In this document: positions 940 to 14,678 of the stretch, one piece after another
Layout of the letters: every line of letters starts with the position of its first letter
Position numbering within the stretch: the first letter of the stretch is position 1
From: Chloroflexota bacterium
GTDB taxonomy: Bacteria > Chloroflexota > Chloroflexia > JAMDCE01
Reading direction: 5' to 3'
DNA length: 16,052 bases
Assembly (NCBI GenBank): GCA_023489135.1
Contig: JAMDCE010000680.1
Location: forward strand, 1-16,052
The notes under the pieces: model-generated
Databases searched by the model: none
Told to the model about the DNA's origin: nothing
The model's input: the letters and a program-made list of their open reading frames with translations, nothing else
Made by a program: the position numbers and the translations under genes

Positions 940-954
940 AGGCCCTACGGGCCT
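940..954 (+). terminator. Small GC hairpin, doubtful terminator
   Basis: AGGCCC (940-945) and GGGCCT (949-954) form a perfect 6-bp stem with a 3-nt loop, followed by only a weak T-bias (tgattt). No plus-strand gene upstream would need a terminator here, so the role is unclear. Confidence 0.25.
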
Positions 955-1052
955 TGATTTACCACCGACCCCTGACCGCCGGCCCCCACTTTACATCCTG
1001 CTCTCCTCGTAATACACTACCAGCAACTCGATTTCAAATCAAGGAAGCACAC

Positions 1053-1871
1053 GTGGCCAAAAACGATTTCGGCGCCTTCTCCGACCTGGACCTCTCCCAA
1101 TGGAAGACCTACGACGACCTGCTCACCGGCAGCCTGTGGCTCCTCGGCGCCCGCGACAAGACCGGGCCCCACGCCGGCGATTACTGGGGCAACTTCGTCC
1201 CCCAGATACCCAACCAGATACTGCGCCGCTTCACCCGGCAGGGCGACGTGGTAGTGGACCTCTTCAGCGGCATGGGCACCACCCTCATCGAGTGCCGCCA
1301 CCTGGGACGCCACGGCATCGGCCTCGAGCTCAACCCCGAGGTCGCCCGGCAATCCGAGCTGCGAATAGAGCAGGCCGAGAACGCCCGCGGCGTCGGCACC
1401 AGGGTCCTGGTAGCCGATGCCACCGCCGGTGAGTCCAGGGACCTGGTACTCTCCGAGCTGCGCCGCCTGGGGAAAGACCACTGCGACTGCCTCATAATGC
1501 ATCCCCCCTACCACAACATCATCAAATTCAGCGACCACCCCGCCGACCTCAGCAACAGCCCCAGCGTCGAGGATTTCCTGTCCAAGTTTCAGCAGGCCGC
1601 GGCCAACGCCCACGGCCTGCTCCGGCCCGGCCGCTTCCTGGCCCTGGTCATCGGCGACATCTACGCCGGCTCCGAGTGGATCCCCCTCGGCTTCGAGTGC
1701 ATGGACCTCTGCCGCCGCGCCGGCTTCCAGCTCAAAGCCATCAACGTCAAAGACATCCAGGGCAACGAGCGCGGCAAAGGCAAATCCGAAAACCTCTGGA
1801 AATACCGCGCCCTGAAAGCCGGCTTCTACGTCTTCAAGCACGAATACGTGATGGTTTTCAGGAAGCGGTGA
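1053..1871 (+). CDS. Orphan DNA N4/N6 amino-methyltransferase-like protein
   Basis: This 272-aa protein has S-adenosylmethionine methyltransferase motifs. Motif I is D69-LFSGMG, preceded by a motif X-like segment around NQILRRF (54-60), and motif IV is H150-PPY-153 followed by HNIIKFS. The order X, I, IV resembles gamma-class DNA amino-methyltransferases, which methylate the exocyclic amine of adenine or cytosine. Motif IV normally reads D/N/S-PPY; His in the first position is unusual. GTG at 1053 is chosen as start because aaggaag lies just upstream and the preceding in-frame residues look non-coding; the frame stays open back to an ATG at 954. No restriction endonuclease or specificity subunit is next to it, so it is probably an orphan regulatory or defence-remnant methylase. 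An RNA or protein substrate cannot be excluded. Confidence 0.8.
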   Translation: MAKNDFGAFSDLDLSQWKTYDDLLTGSLWLLGARDKTGPHAGDYWGNFVPQIPNQILRRFTRQGDVVVDLFSGMGTTLIECRHLGRHGIGLELNPEVARQSELRIEQAENARGVGTRVLVADATAGESRDLVLSELRRLGKDHCDCLIMHPPYHNIIKFSDHPADLSNSPSVEDFLSKFQQAAANAHGLLRPGRFLALVIGDIYAGSEWIPLGFECMDLCRRAGFQLKAINVKDIQGNERGKGKSENLWKYRALKAGFYVFKHEYVMVFRKR

Positions 1872-2071: not shown

Positions 2072-2115
2072 AAATGCTGAGTTCGAATCGTACCGGATCC
2101 GATAAGAGGTGGATA

Positions 2116-2484
2116 GTGGGGCGAGGAAGTGGGCCTCGTGAGAGGCAGCAGTCTCGTGAGGATCGCGGGTCGTCAAGAAAAAGCGAGCCATATCGCTTTA
2201 TTTACTCACCTGATGCAATTGCGCACTTGGACAAAATGACGGCAAGTCAGAGAGGTGTGGTCGTGAACACGGTTAGACGACAGCTATTGTTCGAGCCGGA
2301 CGTTGAGACCAAGAACAGGAAATCGCTACGATCCAACCCAATAGCACCTTGGGAGCTTAGAATCGGCAAATTGCGAGTATTCTACGATGTGGATACTGGT
2401 TCCGAGCGCACTGTTATCATTCACGCAGTTGGTATTAAGGAGCATAACCGTCTTACGATTGGAGGGGAGGTGGTAATCTTATGA
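2116..2484 (+). CDS. RelE/ParE-family toxin, first gene of a type II TA pair
   Basis: The C-terminal 95 or so residues form a RelE/ParE-like domain. It starts at YRFIYSPDAIAHLDKMT, then comes a basic helix, the core LRSNPIAPWELRIGKLRVFYDV, and the end AVGIKEHNRLTIGGE. This layout is typical of toxins annotated as RelE/ParE that are encoded directly upstream of Phd-type antitoxins. Most RelE toxins inhibit translation by cleaving mRNA on the ribosome, whereas ParE homologues poison gyrase; the sequence alone does not decide. GTG 2116 is preferred over ATG 2074 because AAGAGG sits 6 nt upstream and the promoter places the RNA start after 2074. It leaves a 122-aa protein with a Ser/Arg-rich N-terminal extension. 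The stop overlaps the antitoxin start by 4 bp (ATGA). Confidence 0.85.
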   Translation: MGRGSGPRERQQSREDRGSSRKSEPYRFIYSPDAIAHLDKMTASQRGVVVNTVRRQLLFEPDVETKNRKSLRSNPIAPWELRIGKLRVFYDVDTGSERTVIIHAVGIKEHNRLTIGGEVVIL

Positions 2485-2750
2485 GCGCTCGAAGAATAGA
2501 GATGGCTCAAGCTACGAAGCCTCTGGCAGAATATGCCCAGCAGGTAGATGAAGGGGAGCAGCCGTTAGTTGTTACGTCCAGCGGCCGCCCTGTAGTCGTA
2601 GTGATTCCTATCGCTGATGAGGATGACCTGGAGAGTTTTCTGCTTGGTAAGAACAAGAAGTTCTTAGAGATCATCGAGCGATCTCGTGCTCGCTACGCCA
2701 AAGAGGGGGGTCTCTCCGAAGAAGAAGTACGCCGACGGTATGGATTGTAG
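2481..2750 (+). CDS. Phd/YefM-family antitoxin
   Basis: This 89-aa protein has the Phd/YefM layout. An N-terminal beta/alpha DNA-binding part (EMAQATKPLAEYAQQV) is followed by the characteristic PLVVTSSGRPVVVVIPIAD strand pair. An acidic, helical C-terminal tail from about residue 47 would wrap and neutralise the toxin. Antitoxins of this family also repress their own operon by binding operator palindromes. Translation is coupled to the toxin through the ATGA overlap; Met8 is a possible internal start. Toxin-before-antitoxin order is the less usual arrangement for RelBE but common in this RelE/Phd subgroup. An insertion sequence begins about 90 bp after the stop, so the pair ends in an area of mobile DNA. 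Base composition is clearly more AT-rich than the flanking genes, which suggests transfer. Confidence 0.87.
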   Translation: MSARRIEMAQATKPLAEYAQQVDEGEQPLVVTSSGRPVVVVIPIADEDDLESFLLGKNKKFLEIIERSRARYAKEGGLSEEEVRRRYGL

Positions 2751-2855: not shown

Positions 2856-4271
2856 CACCATTCATGCGACAAGGAGTTCGTAAACTTGATCGGGTGTGAG
2901 CCCCTGTTTGAATCGGTCGTGGATCCAGCCCAACATCAGACGCCGATGGCACTTCTGCTGATGGCAGCGCGTCTGGCCGATGGTCAGATCGGGATTTGTC
3001 CCCTCGGCCAAGAGCGCGGCGCGCCGCTGTTCCAGATAGCAGTAGCCAAGGAAGGCAAGATGCCAGAATCGCACGAGCCCCTTGACCGAGCGGAGTTGGT
3101 ACTGGTCGGTGCCGAAGACCTCCTTCACATCGGCGAAGAAGGTCTCAATGGCCCATCTCTGAGCCGCCCACGACACCACCGTGGCGATATCTGCGCCACG
3201 TTCCGAGGTCGCCCAATAACGGACCTCCCTGAGTGGCTGGTCAAGGCGATCCCGCACCACCAGTACCTGGCAAGGACCAAGATTCTTTACCCAAGTCTTA
3301 ATCAAGTGAGCGTAGACCGTTCGCGAGATGCCATCCTCGTGAGGCCAGGGCACCAGTTGATAGTCTTCGGGCGCCAGCCCGGCCGCATACAGCGGCAAGT
3401 GGACGTAAACACGTCCCCGTTGTGGATCCATAACGCGGATGCTCCGATTGGACTTGAGTCCGCCAGTGACGGCCCAGCCGCGCCCGAGAGCCTTCTTCCA
3501 GAGCCGTCGGCAAGTGAACCAGCTATCCATCAAGACGTGAGTCCGAGTGTTGGGCACGGGATCGAAGGTGACCATCACGTCCTCGGCCAGGTCAATCTTG
3601 CTCTGGAATGGGGCCTTCTCCTGTTGGCAGACCGCTTTCTGACGGTACAAACGGGGCGCCAGGGGACACCGATGTCCCAGGAGGGTGAACAAGCCGGCGA
3701 AAAGACTGTGGCCCTTGATCGGTTTGCCCTCGATAGTCGAGTAGTGGTGCCCAAGCCCTTCCATCTTCTTACCCTTGCGCTTGGCGTGTGTCGAGTCGTC
3801 GATGATGAGGAAGCCAGTAACGACGGTCTTCCGTGGTCGGCCTCGACGCTTGGTACGCAAGGATCGCTGACGGGCGTGCTCGGCAGCCACAAGTGGGCCC
3901 AGTGTGCGGCAGTAGTGCTGCCACCAGCGAGTAACCAACTGTTCAGGATGCCAAGGGGCAAACTTGAAGAAGCGGTGGAGGCCGTCGATACGATCACCGA
4001 CACCGGCAACCTGACGGAGCAATGCAGAGAGGGTACGGTGTTCCTCGCATTGCATCAAAGCCAGCAGCACGGTAACGAAGTGCTGCCATTGTGGTTGACT
4101 GAAAGAATCACGGAACAGACTGAGATACTGGCCCAAAGCTTGCTCCATAAGGTCGATAGGGAGCGGCATAACGGCACCTCCGGGATGGAATTGAGTTCGA
4201 GGCTCGTTTCATATCCCAGCAGAGGCCGTGCCGCTCTCTTCTTTATCCGTTCACAAAAATCGCGAAACTAG
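2840..4271. mobile_element. Complete IS701/IS4-type insertion sequence
   Basis: A single transposase gene is enclosed by perfect terminal inverted repeats. Both ends read CTAG next to TTTCGCGATTTT (or its complement). CTAG is itself palindromic, so it can be either the outer part of the inverted repeat or a 4-bp target duplication (2840-2843 and 4268-4271). From memory, IS701-group elements duplicate 4-bp YTAR-like targets, which CTAG fits, making the element proper 2844-4267 (1424 bp). The transposase frame is intact, so the copy may be recent and active. Confidence 0.85.
2862..4169 (-). CDS. DDE transposase, IS701/IS4 family
   Basis: This 435-aa protein catalyses cut-and-paste movement of the surrounding IS. 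The DDE/RNase H-like core is visible. The first Asp pair is in FLIIDDSTHAKRKGKKM (D124/D125), followed by GLGHHYS; the second Asp is in VLMDSWFTCR (D215); the Glu is in RWAIETFFADVKE (E342). R338, E342 and K349 fit the R-(3)-E-(6)-K part of the IS4 signature, while the usual Tyr before it is Ala. The KRRGRPRK stretch at 107-114 is a basic patch likely to touch DNA. GGAGG lies 7 nt before the ATG. Stop and start both sit inside the inverted ends. A long antisense frame over the same region (2886-4271) is a shadow. Full length and absence of frameshifts suggest a functional enzyme. Confidence 0.93.
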   Translation of the reverse strand: MPLPIDLMEQALGQYLSLFRDSFSQPQWQHFVTVLLALMQCEEHRTLSALLRQVAGVGDRIDGLHRFFKFAPWHPEQLVTRWWQHYCRTLGPLVAAEHARQRSLRTKRRGRPRKTVVTGFLIIDDSTHAKRKGKKMEGLGHHYSTIEGKPIKGHSLFAGLFTLLGHRCPLAPRLYRQKAVCQQEKAPFQSKIDLAEDVMVTFDPVPNTRTHVLMDSWFTCRRLWKKALGRGWAVTGGLKSNRSIRVMDPQRGRVYVHLPLYAAGLAPEDYQLVPWPHEDGISRTVYAHLIKTWVKNLGPCQVLVVRDRLDQPLREVRYWATSERGADIATVVSWAAQRWAIETFFADVKEVFGTDQYQLRSVKGLVRFWHLAFLGYCYLEQRRAALLAEGTNPDLTIGQTRCHQQKCHRRLMLGWIHDRFKQGLTPDQVYELLVA

Positions 4272-4604: not shown

Positions 4605-4907
4605 ATGGCACGAATTGCACGGGTGGTTGCGCCTGGCTACCCACACCATGTTACCCAGCGCGGGAACCGGCGGCAGAAAACGTTCTTCTCGGACCAGGAC
4701 CACCGCGCTTACCTCGACCTAATGGCCGAGTGGTGTGGCCGGCAGGGGGTCTCGGTGTGGGCTTATTGCCTTCTGCCCAACCACGTGCGCCCGGTCGTGG
4801 TTCCCGAGAGCGAAGGCGGGCCCTTCATTGAGACCCTCGAGCCCACCCTGGCCCTCCCGCTCAGACCGGGCAAACGCGCACCGAGGCATAGAATGAACCT
4901 AAATTAA
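4605..4907 (+). pseudogene. REP-associated Y1 (HUH) transposase, internally deleted
   Basis: The N-terminus MARIARVVAPGYPHHVTQRG, then FFSDQDHRAYLDLMAEWC and WAYCLLPNH, is the classic start of REP-associated tyrosine transposases (IS200/Y1 clan), which nick and join single-stranded DNA at hairpin repeats. Two defects are visible. The HUH metal-binding motif reads H60-V-R62, so the second His is lost. After about residue 70 the protein jumps to FIETLEPTLALPLRPGKRAP, which looks like the usual C-terminal tail of the family, so the middle with the catalytic Tyr is missing. The total is 100 aa against roughly 200 or more for intact members. The stop codon lies in the right inverted repeat. The product cannot be an active transposase. 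Confidence 0.82.
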
Positions 4908-4919
4908 GTATGGTGTCCC
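4904..4919 (-). repeat. Right inverted end of the RAYT element
   Basis: ttaagtatggtgtccc mirrors 4549-4564. It encodes the last codons and stop of the minus-strand amidohydrolase. Its TTAA gives stop codons to both facing genes. Confidence 0.9.
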
Positions 4920-5884
4920 CCTATTTCCCCGAAAATCCTCATCGCCGTGCCGCCGAAGATCATTGCCTCTCGTTCCTCGCCGAGCCCCAGCGCCTCGATG
5001 GCGGAGATTATCTGCGATATTTTTCCCAGGGCGAAGGGATGGTCGCTGGCCAGCAGCAGCCTGTCGGCGCCGAAGGTATCGGCCGCACAGCGCAGCGCCG
5101 GGACGTGGGAGTTGACCGTGTCGTAGTAGAAGCGCTTGAAGTACTCGCTGGGCGGAGAGGATAGGTGCTGCCGGCACTCGGGCCTGGTGCGGAAGGAGGC
5201 ATCGATACGGCCGATGGTGTAAGGAATAACCGCGCCAAGGTGCGGAAGAAGCATGGTGATGTTCTTGAACCGCTCGAAGATTCCGCGGAAGACCATCCCG
5301 GTGATGGCGATGGTGGAATCGAACAGGTACCCGGTGCTGGCCGCCAGGTCGTAGCGCTCCATGATCTCGATCCCGGCCGGGATCATCGGGTGGATGAAGA
5401 TAACGAGGTTTCGACGATCGGCCTCCTCGTACAGCGGCAGAAACTCCTCGGAGTTGAGGGGTCTGCCGCGCACGTTGGCGCCCAGAGCCAATCCCCGCAG
5501 TCCCAGCTGGTCGATGGCCCGGCGCAGCTCGTCCACCGCCGCCTCAGGGCTGGTCAGCGGCACGCTGGCCAGTCCAATGAATCGATCCGGGTACTTGCGA
5601 GAGAGCTCGGCATAGCAATCGTTGGCCACCTGAGCGAGGTAAAGGCTCTTGGCCGCATCTTCAAAGTACACGTTGGGGATGGAAAGGGACAGGACCTGCA
5701 CATCTATCCCCGAGGCATCCATGTCGGCGAGCCTGTCCTCCACCGACCACATCGAAGGCGTGACGGCGACCTTGTCGGTCATTATTTTGCGCCAGGCACG
5801 GTCGGCTAGAGAATCGCCGCCGAGGGTCTCGATTTCCTTCAGATACTCCTGGGGATACCAGTGACAATGAGCATCTACTTTCAT
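4904..5884 (-). CDS. Amidohydrolase_2 (ACMSD-like) metal-dependent enzyme
   Basis: This 326-aa protein belongs to the amidohydrolase superfamily, ACMSD/gamma-resorcylate decarboxylase branch, whose members act on aromatic or dienoic carboxylates with Zn or Mn in a TIM barrel. The metal ligands are visible: H6-C-H8 in KVDAHCHWYP, H165 in VIFIHPMIP, H215 in MLLPHLG, and D281 in LLLASDHPF. Most characterised relatives are non-oxidative decarboxylases, but true hydrolases also exist, so the reaction is open. ATG 5884 is chosen over TTG 5890 because GGAGG lies 6 nt upstream. It is the last gene of the minus-strand catabolic cluster. The end is odd: the final residues GHHT and the stop are encoded by the right inverted repeat of the neighbouring RAYT element, so the original C-terminus has been replaced. 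Confidence 0.9.
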   Translation of the reverse strand: MKVDAHCHWYPQEYLKEIETLGGDSLADRAWRKIMTDKVAVTPSMWSVEDRLADMDASGIDVQVLSLSIPNVYFEDAAKSLYLAQVANDCYAELSRKYPDRFIGLASVPLTSPEAAVDELRRAIDQLGLRGLALGANVRGRPLNSEEFLPLYEEADRRNLVIFIHPMIPAGIEIMERYDLAASTGYLFDSTIAITGMVFRGIFERFKNITMLLPHLGAVIPYTIGRIDASFRTRPECRQHLSSPPSEYFKRFYYDTVNSHVPALRCAADTFGADRLLLASDHPFALGKISQIISAIEALGLGEEREAMIFGGTAMRIFGEIGGHHT

Positions 5885-5986
5885 GGCCAACCTCCGCCTA
5901 TCTTGCTTGGCACGAGTGCTCTTGCTGACAATTACGGCTCATCCCGCCGAGGAGTCCTGCCCGACTCGCACTTGTGCAAACGAACA

Positions 5987-6142
5987 TTAGTACCAGCGGT
6001 CGTCGATCTCGGGGCTCTCGGACGGCGTAAACGAGCTCTCGCAGAACGGGCATTGCAGGGATACCTGCAGGTGCCGCAGCGCGTAGTCCACGTAGAATTT
6101 ATCGCTGCACTTCGGACACTTTACCCAAAAGATTCTTTCCAT
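5987..6142 (-). CDS. Small zinc-ribbon protein paired with UbiD protein 1
   Basis: This 51-aa frame begins MERIFWVKCPKC and contains two CxxC pairs, C9/C12 and C31/C34 (CPFC), typical of a zinc ribbon (or rubredoxin-like site). The Cys positions are identical in the second small protein of this window (13037-13186), and both share a FWV-x-CP-[KR]-C start. GGAAGG sits 6 nt before the ATG, and the gene starts 11 nt after the UbiD protein 1 stop, so the two are surely co-translated. Phenolic acid decarboxylases of the UbiD family (Bsd/Vdc systems) use a tiny Cys-containing D subunit. These proteins may be a functional equivalent, though I do not see clear homology. The tail is acidic (ESPEIDD). 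Function is inferred from context only. Confidence 0.75.
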   Translation of the reverse strand: MERIFWVKCPKCSDKFYVDYALRHLQVSLQCPFCESSFTPSESPEIDDRWY

Positions 6143-6153
6143 TTGGCACCTTC

Positions 6154-7542
6154 CTACTTCTTGTCAAGCCACTCGCCAAGGTTTATGCTATCCACCGCGT
6201 CCTCAGGAACCTTGATCTTCTCCGGGAACGCGATATCCAACGGCCGGGTCGCATCGATGATGACCTTGGTATTGCCCATGGCAGTGGTGAAGAAATTCCG
6301 CGCGTTTTGGATGACGCTGACGTCGCGCATTGGGTTCGTTTGGGTGAGAATGGCCCACATCACGTCTGATTCGTCGAAGGGGTCGATTTCCTCGTCTACT
6401 ACCACCACCCACTGCATCAGCGGAGTGTGGGTCAGCACCTCCATCCCAACGATCTTGGCATTCCCCTCGACCTTCTTCTCGACTGACACGTAGCACACGA
6501 AGCGGCCGCAGCCGGAATAAGGCATATGAACGGCCTTGACTCCCCCGAACTTCTGATTCACGGCATTGTAGATGCTGCCTTCTTTGGGTAGGCCGCCGAG
6601 GTTCCAGTGGCCCTGGTGGCCGGAGAAAATGTCCTGCAAAATGGCATTGTCGCGATGGGACAGGGCGGTGACCTCGGCGATCGGGCGCAGGCATTGCGCC
6701 TGGTAGTGACGCGTAACCTCCCCAAAGGGGTCCACAACTTCACGAGCACCGGGAATGATCTCGCCCTCGATAATGATCTCGGCGTCGGCGGGCACCATGA
6801 AATCCTTCCCCCAGGTCTCGGAGGGAACCAGCCGCAGCGGCTCGTCCAGGAACCCGCCGATACTGTCATAGTCGTTCTTACCCCAGGGTGACAGGCTCAA
6901 GGAGCCAAGAAGGAAAGCAGGATGATGGCCCAGGACGTTTACCACGGGAGCGCGCTGGCCTCGAGCCTCCCATTTGGCCAGGATGCGCTCGTGGTGCGGA
7001 GAGTGAATTGAGATGCCTACTTTCCGGGGTCCCTTGTAGAACGTTTTGATGAAAGATATATCGTAGAAGCCGTCGTCGGGGTCTTTCATAATGCAGGTGA
7101 GCGTGAGCACGGGGCCCACGTCCATATGGAAGTGCCGGACTATCGGGAGTCTACGAATGTCCACCGCATCGCCCACCGCCACGTTCGCTTTCACCGGGGC
7201 CTCGCCGGCAGAGACCGTTTTCGCCGGAATGCCCGAAAGCTCTCGTCGGGCGAACTCCAGGCTCAAGGGCATCTTGGCTTTTTCCCGTGGGAAATTGAGT
7301 ATGGTGGCGCAGCGCTCGCGGGTGCCGAAGACGTTCGACACGAGCTTGAAGTCAGACTTCCCGCCCAGCAGATTCTCAGCTGAATTGAAAAGCACTGTGG
7401 GGTACTTCTTCTCTCGATCCAGCCGCTCCAGAACGGCCGTGGCTTCATAGCGATTGGGACGCACCAGGCGGCTGACTTCCGCGATGTCGTCCGGGTACTG
7501 CTCTTTCAACAAACTGATGAACTGTCTAAGATCTTTGGGCAT
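6154..7542 (-). CDS. UbiD-family (de)carboxylase, active site altered (protein 1)
   Basis: This 462-aa protein is of normal UbiD length and shows the family blocks: KLVSNVFGTRERC, VLGHHPAF, VPADAEIIIEGEI, DPFGEVTRHY, SGCGRFVCY and a C-terminal DATRP. UbiD enzymes reversibly decarboxylate aromatic or unsaturated acids with prenylated FMN. In the reference enzyme A. niger Fdc1 the key residues are N168, R173, E277 and E282. Aligned by motif, this protein has D156 for Asn, D161 for Arg and V270 for the first Glu, keeping only E275; its paralogue in this cluster keeps all four. It may therefore be a non-catalytic partner subunit or use a different chemistry. It is followed by its own zinc-ribbon gene and preceded by a structured 124-nt gap after the ferredoxin gene. 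A Shine-Dalgarno-like AGGAAG sits just before the ATG. Confidence 0.93.
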   Translation of the reverse strand: MPKDLRQFISLLKEQYPDDIAEVSRLVRPNRYEATAVLERLDREKKYPTVLFNSAENLLGGKSDFKLVSNVFGTRERCATILNFPREKAKMPLSLEFARRELSGIPAKTVSAGEAPVKANVAVGDAVDIRRLPIVRHFHMDVGPVLTLTCIMKDPDDGFYDISFIKTFYKGPRKVGISIHSPHHERILAKWEARGQRAPVVNVLGHHPAFLLGSLSLSPWGKNDYDSIGGFLDEPLRLVPSETWGKDFMVPADAEIIIEGEIIPGAREVVDPFGEVTRHYQAQCLRPIAEVTALSHRDNAILQDIFSGHQGHWNLGGLPKEGSIYNAVNQKFGGVKAVHMPYSGCGRFVCYVSVEKKVEGNAKIVGMEVLTHTPLMQWVVVVDEEIDPFDESDVMWAILTQTNPMRDVSVIQNARNFFTTAMGNTKVIIDATRPLDIAFPEKIKVPEDAVDSINLGEWLDKK

Positions 7543-7589
7543 CGCTTCCTGCTAGCACCTCCTCGAACCAATTATGTCGCCAGATCGAA

Positions 7590-7667
7590 GTGCATCGTTC
7601 CCTAAACCCCTTGGCCGAATGACCTCTTCGCGCCCGAAGGGCGCGAGTCAATTAGGGAACGACGCAC
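7590..7667 (-). promoter_or_regulatory. Long nested stem-loop between ferredoxin and UbiD genes
   Basis: Bases 7590-7605 pair with 7652-7667 over 16 positions; the one imperfect pair becomes a G-U in the minus-strand transcript. Inside lies a second perfect 8-bp hairpin (7628-7635 with 7639-7646, loop 3 nt). It begins at the ferredoxin stop codon and ends before the UbiD ribosome site. No U-run follows, so an mRNA-processing or stabilising element, or a small inserted repeat, is more likely than a terminator. Confidence 0.65.
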
Positions 7668-7873
7668 TAAAGCAGTATCATCTTGGCTGGGAAAACTATC
7701 TCCACGGCCGATTCTTTGCAATCGAGCCGGCAGGAACCGCAGTGCCAGCATTCGTCGGGGTACTTTACCACTGCCAGCCTGCGCTCCTTGTCCAGCTCTA
7801 TCACGTCGAGGGGGCAATGTCGATCACAGATTCCACATCCGTTGCATTTGGTTGCGTCTATTCTAGGAGGCAT
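7667..7873 (-). CDS. 2[4Fe-4S] ferredoxin, partner of the FAD reductase
   Basis: This 68-aa protein has two cluster-binding motifs: C10-x2-C13-x2-C16-x3-C20-P and C42-x2-C45-x2-C48-x3-C52. In bacterial ferredoxins the last Cys of each motif usually serves the other cluster. The gene starts 13 nt after the stop of the FAD protein with AAAGGA before the ATG, which points to a tight two-subunit unit. This recalls adenylylsulfate reductase, where a flavoprotein AprA works with a ferredoxin-like AprB, but the protein lacks the long C-terminal extension known for AprB. It most likely feeds electrons to or takes them from the flavin of its neighbour in the cytoplasm. Its TAG stop lies at the foot of the large intercistronic stem-loop. 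Confidence 0.93.
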   Translation of the reverse strand: MPPRIDATKCNGCGICDRHCPLDVIELDKERRLAVVKYPDECWHCGSCRLDCKESAVEIVFPAKMILL

Positions 7874-7886
7874 TGGTCTATCCTTT

Positions 7887-9584
7887 CTACGCTTCCGGAA
7901 TCTCGTAGGTGAGCGGGCTAAAGGTCACCTTAACTTCTTCTTTCGCCTTTTGCAGGACCACCTGGCCGCAGAAGTTGGCATCATCCGTTTCTTGATAGTC
8001 CACGCGGCGGTGGAAGACGCCGAACCGCGTCTCCTTGCGATGCAGCGAGGCCAGGGCGCTGAGCTTGCTAACCTGAAGCATCTCCTGGGCCTCATTGACT
8101 CTCATCAGCTCGTGGAGATTCCGCGCGACCAGTTTATCCTTGTACCCTTCCAGCTTCTCCAGCTTCGTCAGGGCGTTCCGTAAACTGCCGTCGGTCCGCA
8201 CCACACCCACGTTCTCCCACATTATCTTCCGGAGGATGTCCTCGAACTCGCGATGGCTCAAGCCCTCCTCTCGCTTCAAGGGAGCGAAGACCCGTTCCCT
8301 CTCCTTCACGATTTGCTCTTCGTCCACGGCTCCTGGACCGGCTACTTTTTGGGCGTAGACAGCCGATCCTTTTCCCGCGGCATAGCCACCGGCTATCGAA
8401 GGGCTGCAGCATCGGGTTTGATCGGCGCAATCGCCCGCGGCGTATATTCCCGGGAGCGACGAGGCGCACGTTTCATCGATCTTGATGCCGCTGGCGCACA
8501 CCTCGCCCGGCCCCGACTGCATTCCCTCGGAAATCATGATCTCAAGCAGGTCTTGGCTGAGGTCCAGTCCCTTTTGCCGAATAAAGTCGGGGAGGGTGTC
8601 CTTATCGTAGCCCAGGGTGCGATAAAGGTGCTCCATCTCCTCCTTCGACAAGTGCCGGCAGTCCATGAAAACCGGACCTCTTCCGCTCTGGTTCTCGAAC
8701 AAAACCCCTTCGACCAGCTTGAAGCGCGGCGCCTTAGTCCCGCCGGGATGATAGCGCGGCATGAACTCCTCGCCCAAGGAATTGAGCATCTTGCCACCCA
8801 TACCGGTCAGGGCGTTCAATCCGGCGGCGCTGAACCCTTTGGGGACCACCGTGATGCGGACGTATTCCATGTTGGCCAGGGCAGCGCCGGCGCGGAAGGC
8901 CATAGACTGAGCGGCGCCGGTGTCGGCGGGACACTGCCACGTGTTGAAAGGCAGGCCGGTAGGATTCTCGAAGAGCCTATTGGTGTTGCCCGTGGAGAGG
9001 ACGATGGCCTTGGCTCGGACGATGACTCCTTCCCCTGTTCGGATGTTGAATCCAGTGATTCCGGACACGCCACCGTCGCTCCTCAGCAGGTCGGTCACGG
9101 CCACTTTCTCCAGCACCTTGCATCCCAGCCGCTTGGCTTCCTTGGCCAGGCGCGGCTTCAGATGCTTGCCGTTGAAGTTCACCATGTAGGGGCCGGGCAT
9201 GCCTAGAGATCGGGTTCGATAGTAAGTGCCATCGGGCTGGGTGACCGGATTCCCGATGCGAGCCAGACGCTCGATGGCCGCCGGAAGCTCGCGGCAGTAG
9301 ATCTGGTTGATGACCTTGAGGTTGACGGCGCCCCTGGCTACCGTCCCGGCATATTGGAGGTACGCTTCTCGCGTATCCCAATCCTCGCCCGACTCCAGAT
9401 AGGCCTGGAAGTGGTCGATGCCGCCGCCCATGGAGCCACTCCTCTCGATGGCCCCCTTGTCGACGACGATCACTTTGGCCCCCTTCTCGGCGGCGGCGAT
9501 GGCGGCGTTTACGCCGGCCAGCCCACCGCCGACCACGAGGACGTCAGTTTCGTACACCTTTCCGTACTTTTCTAAACTCGGCAT
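7887..9584 (-). CDS. FAD-dependent reductase/dehydrogenase (AprA / fumarate-reductase family)
   Basis: This 565-aa flavoprotein has an N-terminal Rossmann motif DVLVVGGGLAG (15-24), an acidic residue at the end of the second strand (VIVVDKG, D42), the flavin-attachment-like RSGSMGGG segment, and a late FAD motif GIYAAGDCAD. The C-terminal helical part ends with ETRFGVFHRRVDYQETDD, the equivalent of the capping region in succinate dehydrogenase and AprA. Members reduce or oxidise C=C bonds or reduce adenylylsulfate. Here the catabolic context (ferredoxin partner, UbiD proteins, TRAP importer) suggests a redox step on an organic acid, not sulfur metabolism, but that is inference. The start is ATG 9584 with GGAGG 4 nt upstream; a longer frame to 9686 overlaps the TRAP gene and has no ribosome site. 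No signal peptide is seen, so it should be cytoplasmic. Confidence 0.92.
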   Translation of the reverse strand: MPSLEKYGKVYETDVLVVGGGLAGVNAAIAAAEKGAKVIVVDKGAIERSGSMGGGIDHFQAYLESGEDWDTREAYLQYAGTVARGAVNLKVINQIYCRELPAAIERLARIGNPVTQPDGTYYRTRSLGMPGPYMVNFNGKHLKPRLAKEAKRLGCKVLEKVAVTDLLRSDGGVSGITGFNIRTGEGVIVRAKAIVLSTGNTNRLFENPTGLPFNTWQCPADTGAAQSMAFRAGAALANMEYVRITVVPKGFSAAGLNALTGMGGKMLNSLGEEFMPRYHPGGTKAPRFKLVEGVLFENQSGRGPVFMDCRHLSKEEMEHLYRTLGYDKDTLPDFIRQKGLDLSQDLLEIMISEGMQSGPGEVCASGIKIDETCASSLPGIYAAGDCADQTRCCSPSIAGGYAAGKGSAVYAQKVAGPGAVDEEQIVKERERVFAPLKREEGLSHREFEDILRKIMWENVGVVRTDGSLRNALTKLEKLEGYKDKLVARNLHELMRVNEAQEMLQVSKLSALASLHRKETRFGVFHRRVDYQETDDANFCGQVVLQKAKEEVKVTFSPLTYEIPEA

Positions 9585-9633
9585 TTCTCCTCCATTTCCA
9601 ATGAGCAAGAACTTCCTAGCAAGCCGAAGCGAT

Positions 9634-11580
9634 CTAGGCTTCAGTTGGAGCGCCCACCATGCGAGCGGGCCGCCGTCTCCACTCATGCCACAGAACCGGC
9701 GCCACGATGACCAACCCCACTAAGTTGATGATCCAACCGACCAGGGCATTGCCACCCACACTTGGTGGCAGGATCAAAGCAACCCCACACAAGCCGATGA
9801 CTATGCGCTTGAGCCAGTTCAACTCTCCCACGAAGTAACCCACCAGAGCTATCCCCAGGACAACGGTGCCGATGATCGCCGTGACAGCGGCCGCCACGAT
9901 GTCTTCAAGGTTGCCCCGCAACAGCAACGCGGTCGAGCCCACGAACATGAAGGGCACCACATAGGCTACCCCGGCGAGTCGCATCGCCTCGTAACCCGTT
10001 CGCCAGAAATTGGCCCTTGCGATGGCCGCCGCGGCATAAGCGGCCAGACAGACGGGAGGGGTAATCATCGAGAGCATTCCGAAATAGAAAACGAACAGAT
10101 GCGCCGCCAGTGGGAGCATGCCCATTTGAATCAAGGCCGGGGCGACCATCACGGCCAGCAGAATATACACCGCGGATGTGGGCATCCCCATACCCAGGAT
10201 CAGTGCCACTATAGCGGTCAGAATCAGAAGCACGATGATGTTGCCGCCGGCTAGATTGACCAGGGCATTAGATAGTATGAACGCCAGGCCGCTTACCTGC
10301 ATCGACCCAATTATCAGGCCGGCTAGGGCCACGATTACTCCCACGTCCAACAGCACTCGGCTCGTCTTTTCCAGGGAGTCGATTATCCACCCCGGGTGGC
10401 GACGCAACTCCGACTGGAAAAGGCCCAGCACTATCGCCAGGAAGGCGGCCAGAAGGCCGGCCTTCGACTCCGGTACCGCTGCGAGGAAGAGGAAGTAGAT
10501 CAATGCCAGCACGGGCAGCACGAATTGCCAGCCGCTGCGCAAGGCGCGATTTACACTGATTAACGGGGCATTACCGCTGGTGGTGCCTCGAAGGCCGTGC
10601 CGCGCCGCCTCCAGATCCACCTGCACGTACAGGCACAGGTAATAGAGAACGGCCGGAAGAATGGCGGCAATGGCTACCTCGCGATAAGGGATGGCCAGGA
10701 ACTGAGCGATGATAAAAGCGGCGGCCCCCATCACCGGTGGCATCAGCTGTCCACCCGTAGAAGCCACCGACTCGATAGCCCCCGCGACGTGCGCCTTGTA
10801 GCCCGTCTTCTTCATCAAGGGGATGGTTAGATTGCCGACGACTACCACATTGGAAACGGCGCTGCCGGAAATCATTCCGAACATGCTCGACGCGAAGACC
10901 GCCACCTTGGCGGCTCCGCCCCGGTATTTCCCCATAGTCGAAGTGGCGAGGTTGGTGAAGAAATCGCCGACCCCCGTCGAGTTCAATACCGAGCCAAAGT
11001 AGATGAAAGCGAGCACCACGGTGGCCGCCACTGCCAGCGGCAGCCCAAGCAACGAGTTAGTATCGACGTAAAGATAGTTAACCAACTGGGGCCAGGGCAC
11101 CGACGAGCCGGCGAATCCGGCCGGCATAACGTCGGCATAGGCGGCGTACAGAATGAAGAGGGACCCGATGGTCACCAGTATCCATCCCGATACTCGACGG
11201 TTGGCCTCCAGCACCAGCAAGACGGCTATGCCACCCAGGATGAGCCTATCCACCGTCGGCTCACCCATCCGCAAGAGAATCTCATCATAGCGAACCGCGA
11301 GGTAGAGCCCAACCACGAGCCCCAGAAGACTCAAGATAAGATCATACCACGGAACCCGGTCGGGAGCCGACTTGGAGGTGGGCATCGCGACCAGGAATAC
11401 CGAGCTAAGAATGAGCCCCAAGAAAACGCTCAGGTACTGACCCTGCGGGATCGACGTCCCGAAGTAGTCCGGAAGGTCGAAAATGAACACGATCCCCAGA
11501 ATCGGGATCAAGCACAGGAGGACCTTCTGCAAAACGGCCATCGGCCCGTGGAGGGTCCTGAACTTCAGTACTTCATCCAA
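9634..11580 (-). CDS. TRAP transporter permease, fused DctQ-DctM, TAXI type
   Basis: This is a large, very hydrophobic protein of about 648 aa with many membrane segments throughout. It carries the hallmarks of fused TRAP permeases (4TM/12TM family): MFGMISGSAVSNVVVVG, the GAIESVASTGGQLMPPVMGAAAFI block, and LILGMGMPTSAVYILLA followed by MLSMITPPVCLAAYAA. TRAP systems use an ion gradient and an extracytoplasmic binding protein to import organic acids. The binding protein gene lies directly upstream. The start is uncertain. TTG at 11580 has AAGGGG 6 nt upstream and gives a short cytoplasmic leader of the kind seen in relatives; ATG 11541 is the alternative with no clear ribosome site. A still longer frame to 11679 runs through the hairpin after the binding-protein gene and is unlikely. 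It most likely imports the substrate of the cluster. Confidence 0.93.
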   Translation of the reverse strand: MDEVLKFRTLHGPMAVLQKVLLCLIPILGIVFIFDLPDYFGTSIPQGQYLSVFLGLILSSVFLVAMPTSKSAPDRVPWYDLILSLLGLVVGLYLAVRYDEILLRMGEPTVDRLILGGIAVLLVLEANRRVSGWILVTIGSLFILYAAYADVMPAGFAGSSVPWPQLVNYLYVDTNSLLGLPLAVAATVVLAFIYFGSVLNSTGVGDFFTNLATSTMGKYRGGAAKVAVFASSMFGMISGSAVSNVVVVGNLTIPLMKKTGYKAHVAGAIESVASTGGQLMPPVMGAAAFIIAQFLAIPYREVAIAAILPAVLYYLCLYVQVDLEAARHGLRGTTSGNAPLISVNRALRSGWQFVLPVLALIYFLFLAAVPESKAGLLAAFLAIVLGLFQSELRRHPGWIIDSLEKTSRVLLDVGVIVALAGLIIGSMQVSGLAFILSNALVNLAGGNIIVLLILTAIVALILGMGMPTSAVYILLAVMVAPALIQMGMLPLAAHLFVFYFGMLSMITPPVCLAAYAAAAIARANFWRTGYEAMRLAGVAYVVPFMFVGSTALLLRGNLEDIVAAAVTAIIGTVVLGIALVGYFVGELNWLKRIVIGLCGVALILPPSVGGNALVGWIINLVGLVIVAPVLWHEWRRRPARMVGAPTEA

Positions 11581-11670
11581 GATGTGCCCCTTCTTTCCAT
11601 CGACTCTGTCTGGCCCAAGGAAACAAGTTGGCAGCGAGAATCTCCGCCCGTAACCTTGGCTACCAGGAAC

Positions 11671-11697
11671 GCGGGGCACTATGGCACAGCGCCCCGC
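11671..11697 (-). promoter_or_regulatory. Intercistronic hairpin after the binding-protein gene
   Basis: gcggggc (11671-11677) pairs perfectly with gccccgc (11691-11697) around a 13-nt loop. It sits 18 nt past the stop of the binding-protein gene, without a U-run. Such hairpins often protect the mRNA of the abundant binding protein or partly stop transcription before the permease. This role is inferred. Confidence 0.5.
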
Positions 11698-11715
11698 TTG
11701 AGCAAACCCAAGGTG

Positions 11716-12951
11716 CTATTTGATGAACGGCAGCTCGCCCTTCAGGAGTTGTTCCTGGTTCTTGTCCATTTCGGCGGTCCAGATCCCCTTCTCCTTGTAG
11801 AAAGCGATGGCACCGGGGTGATAGGGCAAGGTCGCCGTCTTGGAAAGGTACATATCGGTTTTCCAGTCGGCAAACTGGGAGTGCATGGGCTTCAGCTTCT
11901 CGGCGTTATCCCACCAGGTCTTTACCAGAGTGTAAGCGACGATGTCGGGCACGTTGCTCGACGCCATCAAAACGGTGGGGTATCCCCAGATGGCTGTGTC
12001 CTTGACCAAACCGGCCGATGAACCGGCCTTAACTTTCACCACGCGGCCACCCGGCATCATCCCCTGAACGGTGGGGAGGTTGGGCGAATCGAGGGGCAGA
12101 TCCAGGAAGCGCACACCCACCTGCGCATCGGCTTCCGCTATTTGTCCCATCCCCACCGCCACACAGGCGGCATCGAGGCGGCCTTCGGCCAGTGCGCGCA
12201 CGGCGGCCGCCGGGTCGGGAACTTCCACGGCCTTTACGTTGCTGGTAGTCAACCCAGCGAGGGCAGCGGTCGTGTAGGCAGCTAAAGCTGCTCCTCCGTG
12301 CGCCTTGAACCCCCAGGCAACCCTGGCTCCCTTGAGATCGTCCGCGGTCTGATACTTCGAATCCTTGCGCACCAGCATGCCGACGGTCAAGTCCGTACCC
12401 ATCATGAGACCGCGAAGCGTGTTGTACGACTTGTTGTAAGGGATGGGGATTGTCACCCCAGCGGGCAAGGGCTTGGGCGTAGCTTTTCCTGTGAAGGCCT
12501 GCCAGGCTTCCACGGAGTTAAGGATAGCCGTCTCCGGTTTGCCCGCGGATGACATCTGGGGGATGTAGGCCGGCGACCCGGAAAATGGCTGAACGATCAC
12601 CTGCAGTGGCCCGGCGTCGCTGGCCACCTTTGCGAGGCCGGTGCCCATGGCATTCAGGGTCGTGCCCGGTGTAGACGTGGCGAGAGTGACGTTTCGTGGC
12701 AACTGGCCGCTTGGTTTCGGGGCCGCGGCCGCGGGCTTAGTCGCCGCCGGCGCCTTAGTGGCCTCGGGCGCCTTGGTAGCTTGGGCGGCAGGCTTGGTGG
12801 CCTCGCCCGCCGGCTTTTCCGGTGCTTTCGCAGGCGCGGTAGTTGGCTTGGCCACCGTCGGCGTAGGCGTTGCGGCGGCAGAGCAGGCAGACGCCAAGAG
12901 GGATACGACGATGACGACTCCCATCAGGACCCTGGTCATACTGCGATCCAT
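11716..12951 (-). CDS. TAXI-family TRAP substrate-binding lipoprotein
   Basis: This 411-aa protein starts with a lipoprotein signal: basic MDRSMTR, a hydrophobic stretch, and the lipobox LASA-C23. A low-complexity Thr/Pro/Ala/Lys linker (24-83) follows, tethering the domain to the outer face of the membrane. Linkers of this kind are common in Chloroflexota lipoproteins. The mature part has the TAXI-type pattern: VTLATSTPGTTLNAMGTGLAK at the start, ETAILNSVEAWQAFTG, a GTDLTVGMLVRKDSKYQTADDLKGARVAWG segment, then LDAACVAVG. TAXI proteins bind glutamate, other dicarboxylates or unknown organic acids; the ligand here is unknown. ATG 12951 is chosen for the GGAGG 5 nt upstream and because it gives a clean signal peptide. 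It pairs with the fused permease downstream. Confidence 0.92.
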   Translation of the reverse strand: MDRSMTRVLMGVVIVVSLLASACSAAATPTPTVAKPTTAPAKAPEKPAGEATKPAAQATKAPEATKAPAATKPAAAAPKPSGQLPRNVTLATSTPGTTLNAMGTGLAKVASDAGPLQVIVQPFSGSPAYIPQMSSAGKPETAILNSVEAWQAFTGKATPKPLPAGVTIPIPYNKSYNTLRGLMMGTDLTVGMLVRKDSKYQTADDLKGARVAWGFKAHGGAALAAYTTAALAGLTTSNVKAVEVPDPAAAVRALAEGRLDAACVAVGMGQIAEADAQVGVRFLDLPLDSPNLPTVQGMMPGGRVVKVKAGSSAGLVKDTAIWGYPTVLMASSNVPDIVAYTLVKTWWDNAEKLKPMHSQFADWKTDMYLSKTATLPYHPGAIAFYKEKGIWTAEMDKNQEQLLKGELPFIK

Positions 12952-12977
12952 CATAACCTCCCCTAATTTACTACTTG

Positions 12978-13007
12978 GTGATATGGCGACCAAAGCACGA
13001 CCTTCAA
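12978..13007 (-). promoter_or_regulatory. Weak internal promoter candidate before the binding-protein gene
   Basis: On the minus strand TTGAAG (13007-13002) is followed after 18 bp by TATCAC (12983-12978). The match to consensus is partial. If real, it would let the transporter genes be expressed separately from the first UbiD gene. Confidence 0.25.
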
Positions 13008-13036
13008 GAACCGTGTCGAATTAGGCCTCACCATTC

Positions 13037-13186
13037 TCAGTGGTCTGCCCGGCTTACTGCCGTCGGGTTGGCAAAATACAGCTTACAAAAGGGACACATC
13101 AGATCGACATCCCTGCCTTCCAGAGAAGTGGAGGCGTAGTATCTCCGGCCGCAGCGCGGACAGGTGACCCAGAACACTTTCGGCAT
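13037..13186 (-). CDS. Small zinc-ribbon protein paired with UbiD protein 2
   Basis: This 49-aa frame starts MPKVFWVTCPRCGRRYY and has C9/C12 and C31/C34 (MCPFC). The cysteine positions exactly match those of the small protein at 5987-6142. GGAGG lies 5 nt before the ATG. It follows the UbiD protein 2 gene by 76 nt on the same strand, so the pairing UbiD then zinc ribbon occurs twice in this window. The likely role is a small accessory or structural subunit binding zinc (or iron) and contacting the decarboxylase. Apart from the shared Cys pattern and the FWV-x-CP motif the two small proteins differ, which suggests each fits its own UbiD partner. No enzymatic motif is visible. Confidence 0.75.
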   Translation of the reverse strand: MPKVFWVTCPRCGRRYYASTSLEGRDVDLMCPFCKLYFANPTAVSRADH

Positions 13187-13262
13187 TCAATCCTCCGTGT
13201 GCGTGGCGCAGTTTGTTGAAACCTCACTACTAATGTTGCAACGGATTTGCCGGACGCACCAC

Positions 13263-14678
13263 TTACCCGGGCGGGAATTTGGCCATCCGGTCCGGCGACA
13301 CGTACTTGCCGAGATCGAAGGTCTGGGCCACGTCGGGCGGAAATCCCACTCGCTCGGCAAACGCCACGCCAACCGGCTTGGTGGCGTCGATCCCGACTTT
13401 ATTAATGAGACCCTGGTCGGTGCCGCTGGGATCGAGGCCCTCTCCCACAATATCGGTTATCACTACGGCATCGTCGGGAAGCTTGGTGCGGGTGGCGATG
13501 GCCCACAGGACTTCGCTCTCGTTGAAGATATCGATATCCTTATCCACCACCACTACGTACTTGATGCGAGAATCGACCGGTAGGGCGGCCGCCAGAGCCA
13601 GCTTGCCCTCTCCGTCGGTCTTCTTGTCGATCTTGATGTAACAGATGAAACGACAGCAGCCGGAAAGAGGCAGATGCACGTTCTCGACGCCGAGGACCAC
13701 GTTTCGCACGGCCTCAAACACCTTCCCTTCAAGGGCAAAACCGCCCATCACCTGGTTGTCGGCGTGAGAAACCAGAATGTCGTGGAATATCGCGTCGGCC
13801 CGGTGGGTTAGCGCCGTCACCTCTATCAGGGGACTGTATCGCTGCTCGCCGTAGTAGCGAGTGTATTCGCCGAAGGGCGCTTCGGCCACCTCCTGGCCCG
13901 GCCGAATCTCGCCCTCCACCACGAACTCCGCATCGGCCGGCACCAGGAACTCGTCCCCCCAGGTGACGGATGGCGCCAGCCGGAACGGGCCATCGGTGAA
14001 GGCACCGGGAACCTGGTACTCGTCGGAGAAGGATGCGGTCCGCGCCTGGGAGCCCAGATAGGCGCCGGGATGATGTCCGAGCCAAACCACAACCCTGGTG
14101 GACAATCCATTGGCCGCATTCTCTTTGAGAATGTGCCAGTTGTGCTTGGCAAAGGAGAAGAAGGAAGCCATGGTGTTTTTGGAGCGAATGTAACAGCGAT
14201 GAAGCCCCTGGTTATAGGCCTCACGGCCGGGCCATTTCATGGCGACGAATCCGGCCGTGAGGTATGGACCCGGATCCCATTCGTGGTGAACCGGGGCCGG
14301 CAGCTCGTAGAGATCGATCTCGTCCCCTTGCTTGACGACCGACTGGCAAGGCGCGGTCCCCGCCGCCACGACTTCCGTTGGACGCCGACGGTGCACTCGC
14401 TCGGCATATTCGAAAGCCACCTGCTCCGAGGTTGAGCCGATGGACCAGGCGCAGCGGTCGCGGCTGGCGAACACGTTGGAAACGATCGGGAACTTGCTGC
14501 GCCGGCCGTTGTAGCCTCGCGCGTTGTTGGCGATCACGAGGGGATAGCGGCCGAGGTCCTCCAGCTTCCATTGAAGGTAAGAAAGCTCGTACTGGCCGTC
14601 AATCTCAGAGTCGATTTCGAGGATATCTTGCGGACGCTCCTCACGCAGCCGTGAGAGAAAGGTTCGCAAATCTGACAT
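13263..14678 (-). CDS. UbiD-family prenyl-FMN (de)carboxylase (protein 2)
   Basis: This 471-aa protein is the first gene of the long minus-strand cluster. UbiD enzymes (de)carboxylate aromatic or alpha,beta-unsaturated acids with prenylated FMN made by UbiX. The family blocks are KFPIVSNVFASRDRC, WLGHHPGAYLG, VPADAEFVVEGEIRPG, EAPFGEYTRYYGE and LSGCCRFICY. The active-site set known from Fdc1 is present: N156 and R161 in YNQGLHR, and E266 and E271 in EAPFGE. The His normally contributing to the metal/prenyl-FMN site is probably in SFAKHNWHIL. It should therefore be the catalytically competent member of the pair. GGAG lies 7 nt before the ATG, and a strong promoter sits about 220 nt further upstream. 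The exact substrate cannot be read from sequence; hydroxybenzoate-, gallate- or furan-type acids are all possible. Confidence 0.94.
   Translation of the reverse strand: MSDLRTFLSRLREERPQDILEIDSEIDGQYELSYLQWKLEDLGRYPLVIANNARGYNGRRSKFPIVSNVFASRDRCAWSIGSTSEQVAFEYAERVHRRRPTEVVAAGTAPCQSVVKQGDEIDLYELPAPVHHEWDPGPYLTAGFVAMKWPGREAYNQGLHRCYIRSKNTMASFFSFAKHNWHILKENAANGLSTRVVVWLGHHPGAYLGSQARTASFSDEYQVPGAFTDGPFRLAPSVTWGDEFLVPADAEFVVEGEIRPGQEVAEAPFGEYTRYYGEQRYSPLIEVTALTHRADAIFHDILVSHADNQVMGGFALEGKVFEAVRNVVLGVENVHLPLSGCCRFICYIKIDKKTDGEGKLALAAALPVDSRIKYVVVVDKDIDIFNESEVLWAIATRTKLPDDAVVITDIVGEGLDPSGTDQGLINKVGIDATKPVGVAFAERVGFPPDVAQTFDLGKYVSPDRMAKFPPG

Follow-up and report, generated by a model that had tools for sequence, protein, structure and literature searches.

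Small zinc-ribbon-like proteins encoded beside UbiD genes, as probable partners of one UbiD clade

We describe here two very small genes, of 51 and 49 codons, in a 16,052-nucleotide stretch of DNA from a Chloroflexota bacterium (contig JAMDCE010000680.1; 'the window' throughout), each of which lies directly downstream of a gene for a protein of the UbiD family, enzymes that take off or put on carbon dioxide. Their products, ribbon-A and ribbon-B, carry two CxxC 'knuckles' apiece and, by analogy with VdcD, the small subunit of a known UbiD-family decarboxylase, we consider it probable that each is a zinc-ribbon subunit of the UbiD protein whose gene precedes it (UbiD-A and UbiD-B, respectively). 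They belong to a family of proteins under purifying constraint, which is linked to UbiD genes and nearly restricted to a single UbiD clade, and one of the two UbiD proteins has a rebuilt catalytic triad; from these observations we infer zinc binding, a complex, a docking site and activation of the enzyme.

A ribbon family tied to one UbiD clade

The two gene pairs, with the codons discussed below, are as follows.

13263..14678, minus strand: UbiD-B, 471 amino acids (aa), intact triad E266, R161, E271
13037..13186, minus strand: ribbon-B, 49 aa, C9/C12/C31/C34
13162-13160, 13153-13151, 13096-13094 and 13087-13085, minus strand: cysteine codons of ribbon-B, which has Thr, not an acidic residue, eight positions past the fourth cysteine (C4+8)
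6154..7542, minus strand: UbiD-A, 462 aa, UbiD fold
7045-7047 and 6733-6735, minus strand: codons 166 and 270 of UbiD-A, Lys and Val at the positions of the catalytic Arg and first Glu
5987..6142, minus strand: ribbon-A, 51 aa, C9/C12/C31/C34
6118-6116, 6109-6107, 6052-6050 and 6043-6041, minus strand: cysteine codons of ribbon-A, with the codon for E42 at 6019-6017

Both small open reading frames (ORFs) start on the same strand as, and shortly after, the UbiD stop codon (gaps of 11 nt for UbiD-A/ribbon-A and 76 nt for UbiD-B/ribbon-B), are preceded by ribosome-binding-like stretches (aggaagg and ggagg, respectively), and place their cysteines identically, at 9, 12, 31 and 34; position, strand and cysteine numbering are as the original prediction had described from the sequence of the window. 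Its statement that the two products share only FWV-x-CP-[KR]-C and CPFC, by contrast, understated their likeness, since BLASTP aligns them with 16 of 39 residues identical and 23 of 39 similar (E 3e-13, as a single comparison). Domain calls in the window were made with Pfam and NCBIfam models, each at its own curated cut-off; UbiD-A and UbiD-B, which are 38% identical, both exceed the gathering cut-offs of the three Pfam UbiD domains (N, Rift-related and C) and the cut-off of TIGR00148.

Searched against 5.8 billion proteins, ribbon-B retrieved itself and one other and ribbon-A retrieved 12 proteins, while a profile built from 15 ribbons retrieved 112 at E <= 0.01; most of these are unnamed or called 'hypothetical protein', and a few are labelled in general terms, for example as 'uncharacterized protein YbaR (Trm112 family)' or 'RPC12/RpoP'. 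We aligned 106 ribbons, comprising the two of the window and 104 of the 112 matches (P0001, which is ribbon-B, and seven of 66-83 aa, P0002, P0028, P0054, P0056, P0062, P0075 and P0093, being omitted). The four cysteines, whose conservation among homologues was a check attached to the original prediction, are kept in 104 of the 106, with C9, C31 and C34 invariant and C12 present in 104; position C4+8 is acidic in 96 (Glu in 82, Asp in 14), and 18 or 19 residues separate the two knuckles in 48 of 54 ribbons. Ratios of non-synonymous to synonymous differences (pN/pS) across the ribbon frame were 0.02-0.11 in 20 pairwise comparisons from four close groups which, taken with the conserved cysteines, indicates a real, constrained protein-coding family under purifying selection. 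The AlphaFold2 model of ribbon-A has a predicted local distance difference test (pLDDT) score of 86.5, and its weak structural matches include the small zinc proteins S27e, LysW and ZitP. A further type of ribbon (MKVAWITCPKC...), which has a 25-residue gap between its knuckles, was seen upstream of UbiD in L236, L245 and L246.

Scanning genome contigs with the ribbon sequence pattern alone gave 24 loci, of which 22 have an adjoining UbiD gene; the two others are L007, with no UbiD within 8 kb, and L015, where the ribbon sits at base 302 of its contig. The UbiD-less gene (L007:8001-8150) lies between DsbA-like and major facilitator superfamily genes, in a genome with 59 UbiD matches. The search was extended to 21 of these genomes and to 201 genomes of the phylum of G001 (the 201 yielding 11 with a match, four of them already known), and returned 30 further ribbon matches: 24 adjoin UbiD (partial frames in L047, L050 and L073), one stands at a contig edge (L068), and the remaining five, of MJ0042-like or other zinc-finger kind, lie inside longer ORFs (162-389 aa) without UbiD. 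Ribbons beside UbiD occur in genomes labelled Chloroflexi, Bacillota, Acidobacteria, Rokubacteria, Tectomicrobia and Deltaproteobacteria, such that the small cysteine frame expected beside related UbiD genes is indeed conserved, across six labelled bacterial groups.

The association was also approached starting from UbiD. In nine of the genomes just described there are 92 UbiD places, and 92 frames were examined (one gene occurs twice, L022 being the same as L114, and the partial G002:C16 was omitted) by scanning 450 nt downstream and 350 nt upstream for CxxC-x(10-28)-CxxC, with at least 300 nt of downstream sequence available for 88. A four-cysteine frame was found downstream of 11 and upstream of three (one ferredoxin-like), with none at 78; a ribbon thus lies beside 13 of the 92. 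Four genomes, G001 (L001), G011 (L007), G018 (L017) and G021 (L018), of 3.5-6.8 Mb, each carry between 41 and 59 UbiD matches (E <= 1e-10).

A first tree took in 141 UbiDs, after seven short frames had been removed; one 54-row clade (98% SH-aLRT) contains 41 of its 42 UbiDs that have a downstream ribbon, and the seven VdcCs lie elsewhere. A UbiD-first search of four phyla (299, 301, 247 and 247 genomes) then added at least 111 loci with 120 UbiD frames, 90 of which entered a larger tree (score >= 400, length >= 380); ferredoxin-like frames in L146 and L215, and an unribbon-like one in L145, were not counted as ribbons, and the short UbiD frame of L246, dropped from the tree, has its ribbon upstream. 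Here 52 of the 53 downstream-ribbon rows fall into a single 71-row clade (98% SH-aLRT). Removal of three duplicates leaves 216 distinct UbiDs (69 in the clade, seven VdcC and 140 others). Within the clade a ribbon lies downstream of 50 and upstream of four, with one at a contig edge and 14 having none; among the 140 others, 128 have none, six are at a contig edge, five have a ribbon upstream and one has it downstream. The clade therefore accounts for 50 of 51 distinct UbiDs with a downstream ribbon, and five of the six non-clade UbiDs that touch a ribbon share their locus with a clade UbiD; in the sixth case, L018, the second UbiD is an unplaced fragment at the contig start. The clade was drawn from ribbon presence, as the smallest side of the tree with all downstream-ribbon rows except L071_2634m, so that its edge is fitted to the trait, and both trees are quick maximum-likelihood ones (LG+G4) with several long branches. 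In genomes never searched for ribbons, a count that leaves out three UbiDs from genomes screened earlier, 11 of 15 clade UbiDs have a ribbon; outside the clade (n=46), 44 have none and two are at an edge. At the level of genes, in linkage and in clade, the predicted small subunit of a UbiD subfamily is therefore borne out; that it is also a physical subunit we infer.

UbiD-A, its Lys-type relatives and the gene neighbourhood

The two UbiD proteins of the window differ at the active site. At the triad positions of Aspergillus AnFdc1 (E277/R173/E282), UbiD-A has V270-K166-E275, and at the metal site it has D161, H183 and D224 against the usual N, H and E. As two of the three triad residues are replaced, it is doubtful from its sequence that UbiD-A acts as an ordinary (de)carboxylase dependent on prenylated flavin mononucleotide (prFMN); UbiD-B has the Glu-Arg-Glu/Asp network, and ordinary activity would be expected of it. 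In Aspergillus Fdc1, according to PMC5818171, the activity of R173K was undetectable and E277Q retained very little. We have accordingly filed UbiD-A, which lacks the network, as a UbiD-fold homologue and not as a prFMN decarboxylase. Its predicted structure is confident (pLDDT 92.5, predicted template modelling score 0.89), with HmfF as the best fold match in the Protein Data Bank (PDB), and the model therefore suggests that the fold has not decayed. With two triad residues replaced, UbiD-A would either catalyse something else or be a partner without catalysis of its own, unless other parts of the site compensate.

UbiD-A is one of 18 distinct genes (19 rows) in a monophyletic Lys-type branch with a support of 100; a ribbon accompanies fifteen of them. 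All have the Lys and keep the last Glu, and in all except one the first Glu is replaced, by V, A, L, Q or C. The neighbours of these loci vary (molybdenum-cofactor dehydrogenase, GDPD, histidine kinase, TRAP, aminotransferase and glycosidase genes), and we found no partner gene common to L001, L003, L022, L045 and L067. Three Bacillota loci (L004:6494-11420, L005:301-5187 and L022:6587-11450) have their genes in the order UbiD (Lys type)-ribbon-TAXI-TRAP, and thus a Lys-type UbiD need not adjoin a normal one; the same gene order is present at 9634-14678 of the window, with UbiD-B. L226 has a Lys-type UbiD with a ribbon downstream and a second, different four-cysteine frame upstream. Elsewhere, ribbon-bearing UbiDs of two genomes (L056:2546-4009 and L228) have H-T-D in place of E-R-E. 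In the literature covered (titles and abstract openings, with most subscription journals outside the scope), we found no UbiD branch with Lys for the catalytic Arg and no zinc-ribbon UbiD partner except VdcD.

Taking these findings together, we tentatively propose a wider picture, which we regard as possible but short of probable, in which the clade consists of two-subunit UbiD complexes spread over several phyla, with a ribbon of their own recruited apart from VdcD, and in which the x-K-E/D-H-D branch (UbiD-A and 17 other genes) has moved beyond ordinary prFMN decarboxylation to another reaction, another cofactor or a regulatory role. The branch raises the question of whether every UbiD reaction depends on the Glu-Arg-Glu network. 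Were it true that the clade needs a partner of about 50 residues, mostly named 'hypothetical protein' or not named at all, expressing these enzymes alone would fail; the isolation of some UbiD enzymes in active form is described as intractable in PMC10865409. With up to 59 UbiD matches in some genomes, the point may also bear on how mostly uncultured bacteria handle aromatic acids.

Read along the minus strand, the genes of the window run UbiD-B, ribbon-B, TAXI, TRAP permease, FAD flavoprotein, ferredoxin, UbiD-A, ribbon-A and amidohydrolase_2 protein; those not already given are:

11716..12993, minus strand: TAXI-family TRAP solute-binding protein (TIGR02122 above cut-off)
9634..11679, minus strand: fused TRAP permease (TIGR02123 above cut-off)
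7887..9686, minus strand: FAD flavoprotein of the fumarate reductase / AprA kind (Pfam FAD_binding_2 above cut-off)
7667..7873, minus strand: small ferredoxin with two 4Fe-4S motifs (Fer4 above cut-off)
4904..5890, minus strand: amidohydrolase_2 family protein, downstream of ribbon-A (PF04909 above cut-off)

The TAXI-TRAP solute-binding protein possibly serves in uptake of the substrate. None of the best 25 NCBIfam matches to the flavoprotein reaches its own cut-off, and the true start of this gene is probably further in, as the listed start overlaps the TRAP gene; for the ferredoxin the top NCBIfam score is that of AprB, under the cut-off of that model. An AprA/AprB-like pair of flavoprotein and small ferredoxin stands close to ribbon-UbiD modules both in the window (7667-9686) and in L014:2-1410. 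Further out lie an N6/N4-kind DNA methylase gene (954-1871, plus strand; PF01555), a DDE transposase gene (2862-4169, minus strand; PF13546 and PF01609), which places a mobile element close to the cluster, and, at 2074-2750 (plus strand), a 136-aa ORF without a Pfam match that overlaps the start of a Phd/YefM-like antitoxin ORF (29.1 bits, slightly below the cut-off of 29.8), possibly a toxin-antitoxin pair.

How a ribbon might act on its UbiD

We suggest that each ribbon would bind one zinc ion through its two CxxC knuckles and dock on its cognate UbiD close to the loops of the active site, in the way that VdcD sits on VdcC; once docked, it may steady the catalytic loops, such that the enzyme is switched on. 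Judged from register alone, a likely contact would pair the acidic residue at C4+8 with an Arg at the position of VdcC R133. In VdcCD, residues R12, R36 and E39 of VdcD are reported to form salt bridges with D173, E31 and R133 of VdcC (PMC8379154), which we paired in the order listed, by assumption. E39 of ShVdcD lies eight residues past the fourth cysteine, and E42 of ribbon-A has the same register; the R133 position is occupied by R136 in UbiD-A and V130 in UbiD-B.

An Arg stands at this position in 7 of 7 VdcCs, in 36 of the 50 clade UbiDs with a downstream ribbon, in none of the four with an upstream ribbon, in 4 of 14 ribbon-free clade members and in 7 of 119 aligned ribbon-free UbiDs from outside the clade (nine others not being in the alignment). 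Scored as pairs, the 50 downstream cases divide into 30 with both acid and Arg, nine with the acid only, six with the Arg only and five with neither, the last including UbiD-B/ribbon-B. The E31 position is not conserved, nor, by eye, is that of D173. In the Lys-type branch the R133 position is Met in the three genes that lack a ribbon and, in the fifteen that have one, Arg (14) or Lys (1), a split that could reflect one event; a kinship-aware test of ribbon presence against this Arg found 6-10 independent pairs with a median p of 1, and is powerless. By this analogy, ribbon-A could plausibly dock on UbiD-A in the manner of VdcD; for ribbon-B and UbiD-B the support is less direct.

Distances among ribbons also track those among their UbiDs, with mirror-tree correlations of r=0.86 for 41 cognate pairs and r=0.73 for 25 thinned pairs, against maxima of 0.30 and 0.35, respectively, in 2000 shuffles. 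Several points weigh against the ribbon being a VdcD-like subunit: linked inheritance alone would also produce such co-divergence; the acid-Arg contact, being absent from ribbon-B/UbiD-B, is not the sole anchor; and comparison of profiles with hhalign gives a probability of kinship with VdcD of only 3% (106 ribbons) or 20% (41 ribbons).

The ribbon might instead be a transient chaperone for assembly or for loading of a cofactor (prFMN or metal), as has been proposed for LpdD with UbiD; LpdD, a small UbiD-linked protein, is described as binding prFMNH2 and aiding UbiD activation (PMC10865409), and action in trans would suit the 14 of 69 clade UbiDs that have no adjoining ribbon. We think this unlikely, as the parallel divergence of ribbon and UbiD suits a specific and lasting contact better than a generic chaperone, and VdcD, according to PMC8379154, is an integral subunit that co-purifies and whose sub-stoichiometric supply lowers activity. 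Less likely still, the ribbon could be a nucleic-acid-binding regulator, of transcription or translation, of its own operon and no part of the enzyme; the top subthreshold NCBIfam scores of the ribbons are to YnfU and MJ0042-type zinc fingers, and small zinc-finger regulators adjoining their target genes exist (for example Brz; PMC2253796), but a regulator would be expected to track operons and not one UbiD clade, whereas the ribbon is downstream in 51 of 60 distinct ribbon-touching UbiDs while the neighbours of Lys-type loci change. Most improbable is that the four cysteines bind iron, as in rubredoxin, and pass electrons for oxidative maturation of prFMN, which is reported to need oxidation to its active form (PMC5818171), since, for all that the window holds flavoprotein and ferredoxin genes, the family matches of the ribbons are zinc ribbons and their knuckle spacing, mostly 18-19, is near the 21 of zinc-binding VdcD.

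Relation to known zinc ribbons and UbiD partners

Among the matches listed, no Pfam or NCBIfam model reaches its curated cut-off for either ribbon, and the names of the subthreshold models are mostly those of zinc ribbons and zinc fingers. YnfU scores 20.6 bits with ribbon-A and 26.8 with ribbon-B under NF038384 (cut-off 36), and 15.0 and 19.8 under PF23499 (cut-off 27); the MJ0042-type model TIGR02098 gives 19.7 bits for ribbon-A, short of its cut-off of 20.9, and MJ0042-like domains match the ribbon profile with a probability of 96% in a comparison with three domains that the profile itself had chosen. We know of no link between UbiD and either the YnfU or the MJ0042-type family, though no search aimed at one was made.

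The closest solved UbiD by sequence, for both UbiD-A and UbiD-B, is HmfF of Pelotomaculum (PDB 6h6v, 6h6x), a UbiD-class decarboxylase which differs in lying outside the ribbon clade, keeping E-R-E and having Thr at the VdcC R133 position. LpdD, linked to the gallate decarboxylase LpdC, is likewise a small protein that supports a UbiD enzyme; compared by description, it differs in being a Mn- and prFMNH2-binding dimer that resembles Pba3/4 (PMC10865409), and PMC8379154 reports no sequence similarity between LpdD and VdcD.

It is VdcD/BsdD (ShdD; NF041205; PDB 7ae4, 7ae5 and 7ae7), the small subunit of the vanillate / hydroxyarylic acid decarboxylase VdcCD, that offers the nearest parallel, in organisation if not in descent. 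Neither ribbon matches NF041205 (cut-off 30 bits) up to E=1, and VdcD is absent from the best 60 of 97 PDB matches to the ribbon profile (E <= 10), although VdcD chains were in the set; its absence from the best 50 structural matches carries no weight, given how small the fold is. The profile comparisons give no sign that the ribbons and VdcD are directly related. As to a shared origin, the profiles give no link and the UbiD tree separates the two groups, while an approximately unbiased (AU) test that joined a 49-row ribbon clade to the seven VdcCs was not rejected (p 0.22) and would allow it; a version holding only ribbon-bearing rows together (p 6e-76) was set aside as uninformative, as it shuts out ribbon-free kin too. 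The ribbons differ further in their inter-knuckle spacing (mostly 18-19 against 21), in the separate position of their UbiDs from VdcC in the trees and, for those of the window, in lacking a match to the proline-rich C-terminal tail through which VdcD is described as contacting VdcC (PMC8379154); after the fourth cysteine, ribbon-A has 17 residues with two prolines and ribbon-B has 15 with one.

The analogy to the D subunit of Bsd/Vdc drawn by the original prediction is nonetheless apt as regards architecture, even though kinship by profile does not follow. In both systems a tiny protein with two CxxC knuckles is encoded just 3' of a UbiD-family gene, with an aromatic residue at C4+4 and, in most ribbons, an acidic one at C4+8, and on the UbiD side the Arg of VdcC R133 recurs in 36 of 50 pairs. 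ShVdcD, as described in PMC8379154, is a zinc ribbon (knuckles C3, C6, C28 and C31) that binds tightly to VdcC and activates it; Sedimentibacter VdcC requires VdcD, an allosteric activator that docks next to the E-R-E motif loops.

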